DNA from: Thermococcus paralvinellae
Lineage (GTDB): Archaea > Methanobacteriota_B > Thermococci > Thermococcales > Thermococcaceae
Direction of reading: 5' to 3'
Assembly (NCBI RefSeq): GCF_000517445.1
Contig: NZ_CP006965.1
Coordinates: forward strand, 1-64,000
Length of the DNA: 64,000 bases
The notes below the pieces were generated by a model. That model ran no database searches. It saw only the letters and a list, made by a program, of their open reading frames with translations, and was not told the DNA's origin. The position numbers and the translations under genes are program-made. Shown in pieces: positions 49,643 to 57,635 of the stretch. Each line of letters starts with the position of its first letter. Within the stretch, counting starts at the first letter, position 1.

Positions 49643-49659
49643 CTTCAGAGGTGAGTGAA

Positions 49660-51606
49660 GTGATAAAGAGGGAGAGCTTTGTAGATGACATATTGAAGGA
49701 AATGAGAGAGATTATAAACCAGATAGTCCCAAGAGAAGCAAAGATAACAGATATTGAATTTGAAGGTCCTGAGCTCGTTATTTATGTTAAAAACCCGGAG
49801 GCAATAATGCAAGACGGAGATTTAATTAAGAACCTTGCTAAGGTTCTTAAAAAGAGAATTAGTGTTAGACCTGACCCCGATGTTCTTCTTCCACCTGAGA
49901 GAGCTGAAAAATTGATAAAGGAGATTGTTCCAGCTGAAGCTGAAATCACGAACATAAGTTTTGATCCCTCTGTTGGTGAGGTTATTATCGAAGCTAAAAA
50001 GCCAGGACTGGTTATTGGAAAGAACGGCGAGACATTAAGAAAGATAACTCAAAAAGTTCACTGGGCGCCGAGAGTTGTTAGAACTCCACCTCTACAGTCC
50101 CAGACAATCTATTCAATCAGACAGATACTCCAAACGGAGAGCAGAGATAGAAGAAAGTTTCTCAGAAACGTTGGAAGAAACATCTACAGAAAACCAGAGC
50201 TTAAGAGTGAGTGGATTAGGATTACCGGCCTGGGAGGATTCAGAGAAGTTGGGAGGAGTGCTTTGCTCTTGCAGACAAATGAAAGCTTTGTATTGGTTGA
50301 CTTTGGTATAAACGTTGCGACATTAAACGATCCTAAAAAAGCATTTCCCCACTTTGATGCCCCAGAATTTAGATATATTTTGAATGAAGGACTTTTGGAT
50401 GCCATAATCATTACACACGCTCACTTAGATCACAGTGGATTATTGCCATACCTTTTCCGCTACAACTTATTTGATGGGCCAATTTACACAACACCACCAA
50501 CGAGAGATTTAATGGTTTTGCTTCAGAAGGATTTCATTGAAATACAGCAGAGCAATGGTATTGAGCCTCTTTATAGACCTAAGGATATCAAGGAGGTTGT
50601 AAAACACACAATTACACTTGATTACGGAGAAGTCAGGGATATTTCCCCGGATATGAGACTCACATTGCACAATGCCGGACACATCTTAGGTTCCTCTATA
50701 GTTCACCTTCATATAGGAAATGGACTTCACAACGTAGCTGTCACTGGAGACTTTAAGTTTATTCCAACAAGACTATTTGAGCCCGCTAATGCAAGATTTC
50801 CAAGACTTGAGACATTAGTCATGGAGTCAACATATGGTGGTAGCAATGATTACCAGATGCCAAGGGAAGAGGCAGAGAAAAAGCTCATAGAAGTAATTCA
50901 CCAAACAATAAAGAGGAAAGGAAAAGTGCTTATCCCGGCAATGGCAGTTGGTAGAGCTCAGGAAATTATGATGGTTCTCGAAGAGTACGCTAGAGTTGGT
51001 GGAATTGACGTGCCAATATATTTGGATGGTATGATCTGGGAAGCAACAGCAATTCACACAGCCTATCCAGAATACTTAAGCAAAAGCCTAAGGGATCAAA
51101 TATTCCATGAGGGGTACAATCCATTCCTGAACGAGATATTTAAGCCAGTTGCGAACTCAAAGGAAAGGCAAGATATAATTGACAGCGAAGAGCCTGCAAT
51201 CATAATAGCTTCGTCTGGTATGCTTGTTGGAGGACCAAGTGTTGAATACTTCAAGCAACTCGCTCCAGACCCAAGGAATGCCATAATTTTCGTCAGCTAT
51301 CAGGCAGAGGGAACACTTGGCAGACAGGTGCAGAGAGGTCTTAGAGAGATTCCAACAATTGGAGAAGGCGGAAGGACAGAAGTGATAAAGGTAAACATGG
51401 AAGTTTACACAATTGATGGATTCTCAGGTCACGCTGATAGGAGAGAGCTCATGAGCTATGTCGCAAAGGTTAGGCCAAGACCTGAAAGGGTGATCACAGT
51501 CCATGGTGAGCCTCAGAAATGCCTTGACTTAGCATCCAGCATTCACAAGAAATTCGGACTCTCAACAAGGGCACCAAACAATCTGGATGCAATAAGGTTA
51601 AAGTAA
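49660..51606 (+). CDS. fttA: FttA/aCPSF1 beta-CASP ribonuclease (transcription termination factor)
   Basis: The 648-residue protein has two N-terminal KH-type domains (about residues 1-140, including GLVIGKNGETLRKITQKVHW), then a metallo-beta-lactamase domain with the motif IITHAHLDHSGLLPYLF, NAGHILGSSIVHLH and AVTGDFKF, a beta-CASP insert and a C-terminal GFSGHADRRELMSYV. aCPSF1/FttA cuts RNA 3' ends and terminates transcription in archaea. The GTG at 49660 is chosen since GAGGTG lies 6 nt upstream; a GTG at 49651 is embedded in it. The proteasome beta subunit precedes it, probably in one operon. Confidence 0.95.
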   Translation: MIKRESFVDDILKEMREIINQIVPREAKITDIEFEGPELVIYVKNPEAIMQDGDLIKNLAKVLKKRISVRPDPDVLLPPERAEKLIKEIVPAEAEITNISFDPSVGEVIIEAKKPGLVIGKNGETLRKITQKVHWAPRVVRTPPLQSQTIYSIRQILQTESRDRRKFLRNVGRNIYRKPELKSEWIRITGLGGFREVGRSALLLQTNESFVLVDFGINVATLNDPKKAFPHFDAPEFRYILNEGLLDAIIITHAHLDHSGLLPYLFRYNLFDGPIYTTPPTRDLMVLLQKDFIEIQQSNGIEPLYRPKDIKEVVKHTITLDYGEVRDISPDMRLTLHNAGHILGSSIVHLHIGNGLHNVAVTGDFKFIPTRLFEPANARFPRLETLVMESTYGGSNDYQMPREEAEKKLIEVIHQTIKRKGKVLIPAMAVGRAQEIMMVLEEYARVGGIDVPIYLDGMIWEATAIHTAYPEYLSKSLRDQIFHEGYNPFLNEIFKPVANSKERQDIIDSEEPAIIIASSGMLVGGPSVEYFKQLAPDPRNAIIFVSYQAEGTLGRQVQRGLREIPTIGEGGRTEVIKVNMEVYTIDGFSGHADRRELMSYVAKVRPRPERVITVHGEPQKCLDLASSIHKKFGLSTRAPNNLDAIRLK

Positions 51607-51636: not shown

Positions 51637-52965
51637 ATGAGATGTCCAAACTGTGGGAGAGAGTGGATTTCTTTTGTTCCCCCTCAATGCTTATGCGATG
51701 AGCTACTTGAGATAACATATGATTACTCCAATGTTGATCCTAGAAAATGGAAAAAACGCGAGAAAGGAGTATGGAGGTATAAAGAACTTTTACCTGGAGT
51801 TAATGAGATTATAACCCTTAAAGAGGGAGGAACTCCCTTAGTGAAAGCTAAAATCGGTGAAGAGCTAAATCTTAACATCTACATAAAAGACGAGACCCGA
51901 AACCCTACGGGCTCTTTTAGGGATAGGCTTGTAACTGTTGGAGTTTCTTATGGTCTTCCTCATGCTGATAATGGTTTTATAGTTGCAAGTGATGGAAATG
52001 CTGCCGCTTCTTTGGCTGCTTACGCTGCAAGAGCTAACAAAGAGGCTTTTGTTGTAGTGCCAAGGAGGGTTGATAAAGGAAAGCTCATCCAGATGATAGC
52101 TTTTGGTGCGAAGATAATTCGCTATGGGGAGAGTGTTGATGAGTGCATAGATTATGCTAAAGAGCTTGCAAAGCTCAATGGTTTGTATGATATAACTCCA
52201 GAGAACAACATCATTGGATTAGAGGGGCAAAAAACTGTGGCTTTTGAGCTTTGGGAGGAAATAAACCCAACACATGTTGTTGTCCCAACAGGAAGCGGGA
52301 GCAACCTCTACAGCATTTATAAGGGCTTTAAAGAGCTTTGGAATATTGGAGCAATTGATGAGTTGCCGAGACTAATAGCTGTTCAGACAGATAGGTGCAA
52401 TCCAATAGCAAGTGAAATTCTGGGGATAAAACCGAAGAGAGAGTTCACGAAAGCCCTGGGGCTTTATGTTAAAGACCCAGTAAATCGAGAGAGAGCAGTT
52501 AAAGCTGTGAAAGAAAGTGGTGGAACAGCTGTTATAGTGGGGGAAGATGAACTTGACTTAGGGGAGAGGATGTTAGCCAAAGAGGGAGTTTTCGCTGAAT
52601 ATGCTTCTGCTGTTGTAGTTCCAGCTCTCCTTAAGCTCAATGATGATGGATATTTTGAAAAAGATGACAGAATTGTCCTCATTGTCACTGGCTCTGGGCT
52701 CAAGAGCTACTACATAGAGGAGCGTGAGAAGTTTTCAATTGGTGGGACCAAACTTAAAATCCTAAAATTGCTGAAAGAAAAACCTATGTATGGTTATGAA
52801 ATATGGGAGAATTTAGAAAAGCCAATGAAATATCAGGCTGTTTACCAGCACATTAAAGAGCTTGAGAGCTTAGGGCTCATAGAAGAAGCGTATAAGAAGG
52901 GAAGGAGAATTTACTATAAATTGACTGAGAAGGGACAGCGTTTATTGGAGAACTTTGAAGAATAG
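51637..52965 (+). CDS. Threonine-synthase-like protein without PLP lysine, fused to winged helix
   Basis: The 442-residue protein begins with a zinc-ribbon (MRCPNCGREW, then QCLCDE) followed by the PLP fold type II region of threonine synthase (IYIKDETRNPTGSFRDRLVT, ASDGNAAASLAAYAARANK, PTGSGSNLYSIYKGF, and VTGSGLKSY). The catalytic Lys of SFKDR is Arg95 here, so Schiff-base formation with PLP is unlikely. Residues about 370-442 form a winged-helix domain of PadR style (KILKLLKEKPMYGYEIWENL, VYQHIKELESLGLIEEAYK, GRRIYYKLTEKGQ). The combination suggests a ligand-sensing transcription regulator. The frame is intact. A canonical threonine synthase would have to be elsewhere. The ATG follows GGTGATAGC. 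Confidence 0.85.
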   Translation: MRCPNCGREWISFVPPQCLCDELLEITYDYSNVDPRKWKKREKGVWRYKELLPGVNEIITLKEGGTPLVKAKIGEELNLNIYIKDETRNPTGSFRDRLVTVGVSYGLPHADNGFIVASDGNAAASLAAYAARANKEAFVVVPRRVDKGKLIQMIAFGAKIIRYGESVDECIDYAKELAKLNGLYDITPENNIIGLEGQKTVAFELWEEINPTHVVVPTGSGSNLYSIYKGFKELWNIGAIDELPRLIAVQTDRCNPIASEILGIKPKREFTKALGLYVKDPVNRERAVKAVKESGGTAVIVGEDELDLGERMLAKEGVFAEYASAVVVPALLKLNDDGYFEKDDRIVLIVTGSGLKSYYIEEREKFSIGGTKLKILKLLKEKPMYGYEIWENLEKPMKYQAVYQHIKELESLGLIEEAYKKGRRIYYKLTEKGQRLLENFEE

Positions 52966-53012
52966 AAAGAATTTTAAAGACCTTTAAATACTAAGCCTTT
53001 TAGGTGGGAAAC

Positions 53013-53336
53013 GTGAGAGTTGAAAATAAAGTGTCACTCGTCATCTATGCAATGGGAGCTTTAGGTGGAGTAATCAGTGGTGTGCTTTCTGCTAACGCTA
53101 ATCTCGGCTACGTTGCTGGTTTACTTCTGTATTTCCTGACTCCCAAAGTGATTAAAGCAACCATTAAGGACCTCCCTGGAGAGCTGCAAGACGACAATGT
53201 TCTCCTTAGGAAATCATTTTGGGGCTTCCTGTTGTTCTGGTTCTACTTCACAATACTTGTATACAACATAGTGCTTCCACAACAACCTGTGTTCTACTCA
53301 AATCAGAGCTTATTGTATAACGCAACAAAGGGATGA
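53013..53336 (+). CDS. EMC6/DUF5379-like small membrane protein
   Basis: The 107-residue protein has three membrane helices (about residues 8-25, 29-45 and 75-95). The end of the soluble loop, LRKSFWGFLLFWFYFTILVY, resembles the archaeal EMC6-like family. Members of that family are thought to help insert or stabilise membrane proteins. A GTG at 53013 follows AGGTGGG; the alternative GTG at 53004 overlaps that site. The stop overlaps the start region of rpiA. Confidence 0.6.
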   Translation: MRVENKVSLVIYAMGALGGVISGVLSANANLGYVAGLLLYFLTPKVIKATIKDLPGELQDDNVLLRKSFWGFLLFWFYFTILVYNIVLPQQPVFYSNQSLLYNATKG

Positions 53337-54433: not shown

Positions 54434-55417
54434 TCAAAGAATTTCTTTGACAGCTTTTTCGATCTTTTCAGCACTTGGAATCCATTCTTTTTCTAGGGCC
54501 GGACTAAATGGAATTGGGGTTGCTGGGGGAGTTACAAGTTTAACAGGAGCCTTTAAGTATTCAAATGCTTTACTTGCAGCTATTGCCGCTATATCTGTTG
54601 CAAAGCTACATCTTGGATAACCTTCATCGACAACAACTAACCTTCCAGTCTTCTTTATTGAATTGACTATTGTATCGACATCTAAAGGAACTAAAGTTCT
54701 TGGGTCAACCACTTCGACGCTTATTCCTTCTTCCTCAAGCTTCTTTGCGGCTTCTAATGCTTTGTGAACCATTGCCGCTGTTGCAACAATTGTAACATCT
54801 TTTCCTTCCTTCTTAACGTCAGCTTCTCCCAATGGGATTGTGTATGGTTCTTCAGGAACTGGTCCTTTAATCCCGTAAAGGCCTTTATGTTCTATAAAGA
54901 TTACGGGGTCGTCGTCCTCTATTGATGAAATTAGCAACCCTTTTGCGTCATAGGGTGTGGATGGCATGACCACTTTTAGTCCAGGGACATGAACAAAGAG
55001 GGCGTGAAGTGATTGTGAGTGTTGAGCTGCAGCTGCAAAGCCGGCTCCACAGGTTGTTCTTAGAACCATCGGAATTTTTGCTTTTCCACCAAACATATAC
55101 CTCATTTTTGCTGCTTGGTTGAATATCTGATCGAATGTAACTCCGAGGAAATCTATAAACATGAGTTCTACTACCGGTCTTAGAAGACCTGTAGCAGCGG
55201 CTCCTATAGCGGCTCCAATAAAACCAGCCTCACTTATTGGTGTGTCTCTTACTCTTTCGGGACCGTATTTCTCATAAAGCCCTGCAGTTGCTCCAAAAAT
55301 TCCTCCATATCTTCCTACATCTTCACCCATAATTATTACTTTTTCATCTTTTGACATTTCGTAATCCAATGCTTCGTTTATAGCTTGAGCGAAGGTAATT
55401 TCTCTCACCATTGCCAT
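54434..55417 (-). CDS. acoB: 2-oxoacid/acetoin dehydrogenase E1 component, beta subunit
   Basis: The 327-residue protein is a transketolase-like E1 beta subunit: ITFAQAINEALDYEMSKDEK, IMGEDVGRYGGIFGATAGLY, DTPISEAGFIGAAIGAAATG, LRTTCGAGFAAAAQHSQSLH and the C-terminal transketolase_C part with VVDPRTLVPLDVDTIVNSIK. It pairs with E1 alpha to decarboxylate a 2-oxoacid or cleave acetoin using thiamine diphosphate. It overlaps the E1 alpha gene by 13 nt, and GGGGGTG precedes the ATG. The presence of AcoX- and Lin0512-like genes nearby makes an acetoin-type substrate more likely than pyruvate. Confidence 0.9.
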   Translation of the reverse strand: MAMVREITFAQAINEALDYEMSKDEKVIIMGEDVGRYGGIFGATAGLYEKYGPERVRDTPISEAGFIGAAIGAAATGLLRPVVELMFIDFLGVTFDQIFNQAAKMRYMFGGKAKIPMVLRTTCGAGFAAAAQHSQSLHALFVHVPGLKVVMPSTPYDAKGLLISSIEDDDPVIFIEHKGLYGIKGPVPEEPYTIPLGEADVKKEGKDVTIVATAAMVHKALEAAKKLEEEGISVEVVDPRTLVPLDVDTIVNSIKKTGRLVVVDEGYPRCSFATDIAAIAASKAFEYLKAPVKLVTPPATPIPFSPALEKEWIPSAEKIEKAVKEIL

Positions 55418-56409
55418 ACTAACACCCCCTTAGTTGGGGTAGAAAACACGTCTTCCGTTAAATCCTCCTTTGTGGGCCATGGACTTTCCTCTGCAAATTT
55501 CACGGCTTCTTCAATTTCTTTCCTTGCTCTTTCCCAAACCTGCTCAAGTTCTTCTTTTGTAAATATTCCCTTTTCTAAGAGAACTTTCTCAAAGATCTTT
55601 ATTGGGTCTTTGTTTTCTTTCCACCATTCAATTTCTTCTTTTGACCTGTAAACTTGTGGATCACCCTCAAAGTGTCCTCTAAACCTGTAGGTCTTTACTT
55701 CTATCAGTGTTGGACCTTCCCCTCTTCTTGCCCTTTCAATGGCCTCTTTTGCAACTTCATAAACTGCTAAAACATCCTGGCCATCAACAGCAACTCCAGG
55801 AATTCCATATGCCTTTGCTCTTTCAGCGATGTCTTTAACATTTGTATGCTCTTTTGCTGGAAGGGATATTTGGTATTGGTTATTCTCACAAACAAAAACA
55901 ACTGGAAGTTTCCATATCGATGCTAGGTTCAAAGATTCATGAAAAGTCCCTTGGTTAGCTGCACCATCCCCAAAGAATGCAACTGCCACGCTATCGAGAC
56001 CATTTAGTTTTATCCCCAATGCTGCTCCCACTGCATGGGGGATTCCACCACCGACAATACCATTTGCTCCTAATTCTCCTACATCTAGATCGGCAATATG
56101 CATTGAGCCACCCTTGCCCTTACAGCTTCCCGTCTTTTTTCCAAAAAGCTCAGCCATTGAGGCTTTAATGTCTCCTCCCTTTGCTATATAGTGCCCATGT
56201 CCTCTGTGGGTGCTTGTAATAAAGTCGTCTTTTCTCAAATGGGCCATAATTCCTGCTGCAATGGCTTCTTCTCCAGTGTATAGGTGTACAAAGCCTGGAA
56301 CTTTTCCTTGAGCAAAGAGTTCTGCTACTCTTTCTTCATGAACCCTTATCCTAACCATAGTCTCGTACATCCACAAGAGAGTCTCTTTTGGGATTTCTTC
56401 CACTGGCAT
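55405..56409 (-). CDS. acoA: 2-oxoacid/acetoin dehydrogenase E1 component, alpha subunit
   Basis: The 334-residue protein has the E1 alpha thiamine-diphosphate motif (AVAFFGDGAANQGTFHESLN followed by CENNQYQISLPAKEH), and FVHLYTGEEAIAAGIMAHLR, HRGHGHYIAKGGD and FRGHFEGDPQVYR around the active site. The start ATG at 56409 is preceded by GGAGGGAAAC; upstream in-frame codons to 56475 lie in the intergenic promoter region. It begins a minus-strand operon with E1 beta and the DUF6506-like gene, divergent from the lipoyl/E2 operon. The shared 150-nt region holds TATA-like elements for both directions. Confidence 0.9.
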   Translation of the reverse strand: MPVEEIPKETLLWMYETMVRIRVHEERVAELFAQGKVPGFVHLYTGEEAIAAGIMAHLRKDDFITSTHRGHGHYIAKGGDIKASMAELFGKKTGSCKGKGGSMHIADLDVGELGANGIVGGGIPHAVGAALGIKLNGLDSVAVAFFGDGAANQGTFHESLNLASIWKLPVVFVCENNQYQISLPAKEHTNVKDIAERAKAYGIPGVAVDGQDVLAVYEVAKEAIERARRGEGPTLIEVKTYRFRGHFEGDPQVYRSKEEIEWWKENKDPIKIFEKVLLEKGIFTKEELEQVWERARKEIEEAVKFAEESPWPTKEDLTEDVFSTPTKGVLVWQW

Positions 56410-56559
56410 TTCGTTTCCCTCCAGTAGGTTTAGATTATACCCAAGAATAGATTTTACCAATGTCATTATCTGCAAAATTTATATATACGTTTTTCGCAAG
56501 AATTATATACAAATCACGAGTCAGTAACCTAAGAAAATTGTTATTTCGAGGTGACAACA
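56410..56559. promoter_or_regulatory. Divergent promoter of the acetoin-dehydrogenase-like cluster
   Basis: Between acoA and the lipoyl gene there are 150 nt. On the minus strand a TATA-like TATATATAAAT (about 56474-56486) should direct transcription of acoA. On the plus strand AATTATATACAAA (about 56501-56513) should direct the lipoyl gene, leaving a short leader with GAGGTGACAAC before the ATG. No clear palindromic operator was seen. Confidence 0.45.
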
Positions 56560-56805
56560 ATGAAAAAAGTAAATGTTATCATGCCAAAATTTGGTCTAAC
56601 AATGACGAAAGGAACAATAGTAGAATGGAAAAAGAAAGTAGGTGAAAGAGTAGAAAAAGGAGAAGTTATTGCAACAGTAGAGTCAGAAAAAATAACTGGG
56701 GAAGTGGAATCCCCAGCAAGCGGTATTTTAGTTGAGATTTTACATGATGTTGGAGATGAAGTTCCTATAGGAGAACCTATTGCAATTATTGAAGTGGAAG
56801 AGTGA
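56560..56805 (+). CDS. Stand-alone lipoyl domain protein
   Basis: The 81-residue protein is a complete biotinyl/lipoyl domain: MPKFGLTMTKGTIVEWKKKV, then GEVIATVESEKITGEVESPA with the lipoylated Lys44 in ESEKI, and GILVEILHDVGDEVPIGEPI. Normally this module is the N-terminus of E2, but here it is a separate gene, ending 5 nt before the E2 core. GAGGTGACAAC precedes the ATG at 56560; a GTG at 56551 overlaps that site. It would be the swinging arm of the complex, modified by the LplA encoded at 58979. Confidence 0.92.
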   Translation: MKKVNVIMPKFGLTMTKGTIVEWKKKVGERVEKGEVIATVESEKITGEVESPASGILVEILHDVGDEVPIGEPIAIIEVEE

Positions 56806-56810
56806 TAGTG

Positions 56811-57635
56811 ATGGAGAATATTAATGAACAAATTAGGATAATAGCAGAGCAATATGACATAGATTTGTCTAAGATAAAGGGTTCTGGACCAAATGGAGAA
56901 GTTACCCTCCACGACCTTGAAGCTTACATAAAAGAGCACTACTTTCCAAAAGTGAAGCAAGAAGTCAAGATTTTTGGAATTAGAAAGGTTATAGGGGATA
57001 GGCTTTCCAGAAGCTACAGAGAAGCAGTTCATGTAACTCTTAACATGGAGGTTGAGATGGACAAGATTATTGAAATAAGAGAAAAATTAGCAAAAAAACT
57101 TGAGAAGAAACCCTCATACACTGTTTTAATGCTTAAGTGTATTGCAAAAGCAATTAGAGATTTCATAGAGATAAATGCAACAATGGAAGGCAACAAGATA
57201 ATGATTTACGACAATATAAACATCAACATAGCTGTTGATAGTCCAATAGGTCTTATCACACCTGTTATTAGAGATGTGGACAAAAAAAGCTTGGAAGAAC
57301 TTTTAAGTGATTATCAAGATTTGGTTGAGAGGGCCAAAAAGGGCATTCTCAAGGAGAAAGACTTTGTTGGAGGGACTTTTACAGTGACAAACCTTGGCAT
57401 GTTTGGAATTGATTCTTTCACCCCAATAATTAATCCTCCACAGATAGCAATTTTAGGACTTAACAGAATTGTGAAAAAACCTGTAATAAAAGATGGGGAG
57501 ATTAAGATTTGCAACGTCATGAATCTATCTTTAAGTTTTGATCATAGGGCAATAGATGGAGCTCCAGCGGCTAGATTTCTACAAAAGGTTAAGCACTACC
57601 TGGAAAACCCAGAGGAAGTGTTTGAAGTTGAATGA
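56811..57635 (+). CDS. acoC: E2 acyltransferase core (peripheral-subunit-binding domain + catalytic domain)
   Basis: The 274-residue protein has a peripheral-subunit-binding domain at residues about 5-40 (IRIIAEQYDIDLSKIKGSGP, NGEVTLHDLEAYI) and the catalytic domain with MMEGNKIMIYDN-type strands, GGTFTVTNLGMFGIDSFTPI and the active-site HRAIDG in LSFDHRAIDGAPAARFLQ. It lacks the N-terminal lipoyl domain and linker of ordinary E2 proteins (about 400 residues), which are provided by the preceding gene. The ATG at 56811 is the most probable start; an in-frame GTG at 56802 overlaps the previous stop. It transfers the acyl group to CoA. Confidence 0.92.
   Translation: MENINEQIRIIAEQYDIDLSKIKGSGPNGEVTLHDLEAYIKEHYFPKVKQEVKIFGIRKVIGDRLSRSYREAVHVTLNMEVEMDKIIEIREKLAKKLEKKPSYTVLMLKCIAKAIRDFIEINATMEGNKIMIYDNININIAVDSPIGLITPVIRDVDKKSLEELLSDYQDLVERAKKGILKEKDFVGGTFTVTNLGMFGIDSFTPIINPPQIAILGLNRIVKKPVIKDGEIKICNVMNLSLSFDHRAIDGAPAARFLQKVKHYLENPEEVFEVE

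Follow-up and report, generated by a model that had tools for sequence, protein, structure and literature searches.

Among archaeal regulators, ThiR and RbkR are winged-helix or helix-turn-helix proteins with a vitamin-enzyme sensor domain, and they differ from the protein described here in the enzyme fold employed and in the vitamin concerned. The bacterial PdxR/MocR regulators have a sensor domain derived from a PLP enzyme fused to a winged helix, the sensor being of fold type I and the DNA-binding domain being N-terminal and of the GntR family. Genes for vitamin B6 uptake of the pdxU type belong to the MocR regulon (PMC5320631; PMC11619246). For example, PdxR of group A Streptococcus controls pdxKU, which encodes a kinase and the PdxU permease, and acts as an activator (PMC11619246). 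MocR has been reported to be absent from Archaea (PMC5320631). We found no description, in the open-access literature, of the family treated below or of any regulator derived from threonine synthase.

The gene studied here encodes a 442-amino-acid protein of Thermococcus paralvinellae and lies in the window, i.e., the whole stretch of 64,000 nucleotides that was analysed (C1:1-64000). Its features are collected in Table 1. Most likely, this database "threonine synthase" is a DNA-binding switch rather than an enzyme, descended from a vitamin-B6-dependent enzyme and devoid of the catalytic residue. In contrast to MocR, its sensor would be of fold type II, its winged helix is C-terminal and PadR-like, and the PLP lysine is lost in most members of the family.

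Table 1. Features of the proposed regulator gene and its neighbours in the window.
Feature	Position	Strand	Basis or remark
Proposed regulator gene, PALP plus winged helix, 442 aa	51637..52965	+	NCBIfam NF004170/PRK05638 "threonine synthase"
Four-Cys N-terminal segment (C3, C6, C18, C20), zinc-ribbon-like	51637..51756	+	Thermococcaceae alignment
PALP domain (fold-type-II PLP enzyme), residues 59-352, proposed ligand-sensing	51811..52692	+	Pfam PF00291, 2.1e-69
Arg95 codon AGG where the PLP lysine is expected (NPTGSFRDR)	51919..51921	+	Alignment, codon reading
Asparagine loop S118-D119-G120-N121 (canonical threonine synthase: STGN)	51988..51999	+	Alignment
Phosphate-binding loop G219-S220-G221-S222-N223, retained	52291..52305	+	Alignment
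Interdomain linker, residues 357-368, low confidence	52705..52740	+	pLDDT <50
PadR-like winged helix, residues 370-441, proposed DNA-binding	52744..52959	+	Pfam PF03551, residues 375-438
Beta-CASP RNase, upstream neighbour, ends 30 bp before the gene; context only	49651..51606	+	
110-aa membrane protein, downstream neighbour	53004..53336	+	Kept in 32 fetched Thermococcaceae loci

NF004170/PRK05638 covers the protein over its full length (801 bits, cut-off 421), and the ThrC model TIGR00260 is also passed (172.7 bits, cut-off 167.1). The AlphaFold2 model has a mean pLDDT of 89, with the linker disordered, and its best structural matches are threonine synthases (1v7c, Z 45.2, rmsd 3.9 over 331 residues; 6nmx, Z 44.8, rmsd 2.3 over 320). 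With ThrC the protein shares the fold, the NPTGSFxDR frame, the Gly-rich loop, TGxGLK and the N-terminal Cys segment, whose four cysteines are invariant in the Thermococcaceae alignment and which also occurs in canonical archaeal threonine synthases, including the canonical paralogue L001. It departs from ThrC in the replaced catalytic lysine, in the asparagine loop, which reads SDGNA where solved threonine synthases have STGNT, and in the added winged helix. The latter scores 41.3 bits (1.6e-10) against the PadR model with a cut-off of 27, and its QAVYQHxxELE helix is conserved across phyla, whereas no GntR or aminotransferase domain is listed by Pfam in the protein. Unlike PadR-family regulators, it carries the winged helix on a large enzyme-derived domain, which would presumably provide dimerisation. 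A first-pass annotation, made from the window alone, had reported the Arg at the lysine position (SFRDR), the intact PTGSGSNL phosphate-binding element and a winged helix behind the fold domain; all three readings hold, and the altered asparagine loop and the four-Cys segment can now be added.

Since SFRDR is common to the orthologues, through differing Arg codons, a sequencing error at codon 95 is excluded. It occurs in all nine aligned Thermococcaceae proteins and at every further orthologue locus inspected. Across Thermococcaceae genes the residue is specified by AGG, AGA, CGA or CGC, and this diversity of codons suggests that selection maintains it. In the T. paralvinellae genome, all six remaining PALP paralogues retain the lysine. 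In the alignment of the main class, 132 of 139 members have Arg and five have Lys, i.e., 134 of 139 are without Lys, while N89, D96, R97, G120, G219, G221 and G354 are invariant (G219 and G221 in 140 members). A similar picture is given by the 62 top loci of the profile search (L143-L204: 57 Arg, three Lys, one Met, one Ser). A second subclass (L209-L219, L221), with proteins of approximately 470-510 amino acids, has Ile, Val, Leu, Met, Thr or Ala at this position, and the lysine is lost in all 12 of its members.

Lysine is found in some Asgard members, and these form a supported clade among Arg-bearing ones in the PALP-domain tree, in which the deep forks are not resolved; the lysine was therefore either lost early and then regained, or lost several times. 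Close to the Thermococcaceae there is a single exception to the Arg: a truncated Thermococci MAG contig (L099, 3046-3444) combines SFKDR with the regulator-type SDGN loop, and may be a genuine Lys-bearing member or an assembly effect.

The family could still be enzymatic, as a threonine synthase or another PLP enzyme that uses Arg95, with the winged helix as an accessory. Its NCBIfam name, the retention of the fold and most pocket residues, and the lysine in a few Asgard members and in L099 would agree with this. However, catalysis by fold-type-II enzymes requires the PLP lysine, and across the family this residue is replaced mostly by Arg but also by Met, Ser, Ile, Val, Leu, Thr or Ala. Further, a canonical ThrC, the second threonine synthase for which the first-pass annotation had advised a search, is encoded in the same genome (C1:443070-444164), and a survey of 15 genomes, archaeal and other, found canonical-length homologues in almost every one. 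We consider an enzymatic role highly improbable. In NCBIfam, NF004170 has "equivalog" status under the name threonine synthase, and nearly all of the members examined are without the catalytic lysine; the name is likely a systematic misannotation.

Members of the family were found in 66 of 94 Thermococcaceae genomes. A pattern scan, which is biased toward SFRD members, places the fusion in Bathyarchaeota, Desulfurococcales, Methanomethylicia, Heimdallarchaeota and Lokiarchaeota. A search with a profile that does not depend on that pattern, albeit built from Arg members, picked up 82 of 398 Thermoproteota and 90 of 195 Asgard genomes at E 1e-110; lone canonical enzymes account for a few of these matches.

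In the window, the upstream beta-CASP RNase, which we take to be FttA/aCPSF1-like, is followed by the regulator gene and then by the 110-amino-acid membrane protein, for which no match was found in Pfam or NCBIfam; most Thermococcaceae share this downstream gene, the exception being Pyrococcus-like genomes, in which a predicted uridylate kinase replaces it. Farther downstream (54434-57635), translations resemble 2-oxo-acid dehydrogenase E1 beta, E1 alpha, lipoyl protein and E2 acyltransferase.

A gene for an ECF S component of PF07155 (hereafter S) is near the regulator gene in 76 fetched loci (52 distinct S proteins), with linkage in Desulfurococcales, Bathyarchaeia and Asgard archaea. In the main class it usually lies downstream in the same orientation, at a distance of 44-150 bp, which widens to 530-680 bp in Heimdallarchaeota and a few other cases, and in the second subclass it is often adjacent too. 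In Desulfurococcales and Heimdallarchaeota, S is followed by a double ABC ATPase and a T-like membrane protein, the latter with no Pfam match. In Thermococcaceae, S is away from the regulator gene; in T. paralvinellae it follows a thioredoxin-reductase-like gene and a class-III aminotransferase-family gene.

The S gene of T. paralvinellae, outside the window, has TTTCAAGTTTTAACTTGAAA at its promoter (G000:C1:1437376-1437395), a palindrome with the core AGTTnnAACT. It lies 6 bp past a TATA-like TTTTAAA and ends 25 bp before the likely ATG. This site is the sole exact match in the 1.96 Mb genome. The same core is present in 30 of 47 non-redundant S-upstream regions of archaea other than Thermococcaceae, e.g., as ATTCAAGTTGTAACTTGAAT in Heimdallarchaeota, CTTAAAGTTTTAACTTTAAA in Thermogladius and AGTATAGTTACAACTATACT in Bathyarchaeia, and its exact form is absent from the other 17. 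A chance palindrome is ruled out: among the 256 palindromes of the control, the next best occurs in 9 of the 47 regions and the 11 palindromes of the same letters (composition-matched) in none, and the S-upstream windows hold 36 sites while the other 325 kb of those loci hold five, with five expected by chance. Where S is apart from the regulator gene (L206, L170, L222), the site accompanies S. Lys-bearing members (L200, L203, L204, L220, L222) share the operator, which indicates a regulatory role independent of the loss of the lysine. The core was not found at the S genes of five loci of the second subclass.

Within the Thermococcaceae, 46 of 57 genomes with the regulator have a site (at most 4 mismatches of 18) in front of S, compared with one of 12 genomes without it (Fisher 4e-6, with relatedness not taken into account); the single regulator-negative genome with a site is a MAG of 78% completeness. 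Ten of the other 11 regulator-negative genomes belong, together with G069, to one S-protein clade, and the independent co-losses are consequently few. No site accompanies the regulator in G069; the sites of G029 and G041 are degenerate, and those of Pyrococcus are weak.

Neither autoregulation nor a wider regulon is apparent. No palindrome is common to the regions upstream of the regulator genes, the core outside S promoters is at chance level, and the window has no copy at up to 3 mismatches. In the T. paralvinellae genome, matches with 3 mismatches are fewer than in the reversed control and are thus noise.

A different transcription factor might bind the palindrome, with some other cause for the linkage between regulator and S, and the small number of independent losses behind the co-absence in Thermococcaceae leaves room for this. 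However, the palindrome is common to archaea of different phyla that share the linked winged-helix gene, and we regard a different factor as quite improbable. It is instead very probable that the 442-amino-acid protein regulates the S gene, and its action on a B6-family S gene through the AGTTnnAACT palindrome, whichever effector is involved, is probable.

The S proteins are assigned to PF07155 with 88 to 136 bits (cut-off 26.7), a family that includes PdxU and PdxU2/HmpT (PMC9997740), and when two archaeal S proteins were compared with the PDB, HmpT (4hzu_S) alone was matched significantly. HmpT binds pyridoxamine, and was first named for hydroxymethylpyrimidine (HMP) (PMC4860826). Regarding its B6-contacting residues, Glu41 is aligned with Glu and His84 with Lys in the S alignment. 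The PdxS gene has no match in the near-complete T. paralvinellae genome, and the organism is predicted from its gene content to be a vitamin B6 auxotroph. PdxS has been lost repeatedly within Thermococcaceae.

The distribution of PdxS and ThiC bears on the substrate, with the reservation that each of the following counts is modest alone and that absences are inflated by MAG incompleteness: among 74 Thermococcaceae genomes of good quality, S is found in each of the 11 that lack PdxS, and the ten without a strong S match all have PdxS, three of them being without ThiC; in Thermoproteota, PdxS is absent from 31 of 35 regulator-positive genomes vs. 6 of 11 regulator-negative ones. Four regulator-positive Thermoproteota and many Thermococcaceae also have PdxS.

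The transporter could serve another vitamin (HMP/thiamine or some further one), with a matching effector for the regulator. The original naming of HmpT and the non-retention of its His84 are compatible with this, as is a gene for an AIRS-fold protein related to ThiL and HypE beside S in 12 loci. However, since ThiC is missing in three of the ten S-less genomes, as opposed to PdxS, which none of the ten is without, HMP is disfavoured as the S substrate, and another vitamin appears unlikely. B6 is the likelier substrate of S, and we hold it to be a good, if not a strong, probability. The AIRS-fold ATPase follows or adjoins S in both subclasses (e.g., L062, 7202-8230; L216, 5502-6515; L214, 1781-2803), and its best NCBIfam matches, HypE and ThiL, are all below cut-off; by analogy with the PdxR-PdxK-PdxU arrangement, it is a candidate for a missing archaeal B6 kinase.

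The regulator might also control S in response to a metabolite of amino acid metabolism, such as threonine or phosphohomoserine, and an amino acid or phosphohomoserine was the ligand considered in the first-pass annotation. The descent from threonine synthase is in line with this, and in some Bathyarchaeia (L205-L208, L154, L160, L161, L164) a canonical thrC with SFKDR and the regulator gene are divergently oriented at a distance of 59-1677 bp; this may point to a threonine-pathway signal, or perhaps to a past tandem duplication or an additional target. By contrast, the conserved target is a vitamin-family ECF S component, the operator core exceeds chance only at S promoters, and the asparagine loop, to which the amino acid carboxylate binds in the enzyme, reads SDGNA in place of STGNT. 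We therefore consider an amino-acid-pathway signal unlikely. The earlier proposal of an enzyme-derived sensor with a DNA-binding domain, MocR-like in another fold, is supported by the loss of the lysine, the separate ThrC, the transporter linkage and the palindrome, while its choice of ligand gives way to B6, which the PF07155 target and the PdxS/ThiC distribution favour.

That the effector is PLP or a PLP adduct is an evenly balanced proposition. PLP would fit the retained Gly-rich loop and Thr351, and, going by the title of PDB entry 1d6s, a Lys-to-Ala mutant of a fold-type-II enzyme holds PLP as an external aldimine, and a pocket devoid of Lys can thus accommodate PLP in aldimine form. Heimdallarchaeota members are without the Asn that contacts PLP, and this calls for caution regarding PLP as the effector.

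Taken together, we hypothesize that a threonine synthase became a transcription regulator, probably a repressor, in which the fold-type-II domain, deprived of its PLP lysine, would act as the ligand sensor while the winged helix would contact AGTTnnAACT upstream of a PdxU/HmpT-family S gene, controlled in trans in T. paralvinellae. The most likely signal would be vitamin B6 status, and the protein would bind PLP or a PLP-amino-acid aldimine but form no Schiff base with the ligand. Because the operator is just downstream of the TATA-like element, the bound protein should block polymerase recruitment; we infer that the ligand-bound form represses S and that repression would be released, and expression of S increased, when B6 is scarce. 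If B6 is right, the protein would work like PdxR, with the same logic as in group A Streptococcus except that PdxR is an activator there, although it is not a member of MocR, since the sensor fold, domain order and winged-helix family differ. The broadest proposal, an archaeal B6-sensing family derived from a fold-type-II PLP enzyme in Thermococcota, Thermoproteota and Asgard archaea, as an independent counterpart of PdxR/MocR with a cross-phyla operator, an ECF target and possibly a B6 kinase of ThiL/HypE fold, is put forward tentatively, at slightly short of even chances.

If this is true, Archaea, in which MocR is reported absent (PMC5320631), would gain their own PLP-enzyme-derived regulator on a different fold. 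The family also offers an example of a catalytic lysine exchanged for eight different residues within an otherwise fixed motif. The proposal would further correct the function of a family named threonine synthase in the curated library of NCBI, and would suggest a likely B6 importer in a field in which few B6 transporters have been identified (PMC9997740). Regulator and importer would both be testable through one 20-bp operator.
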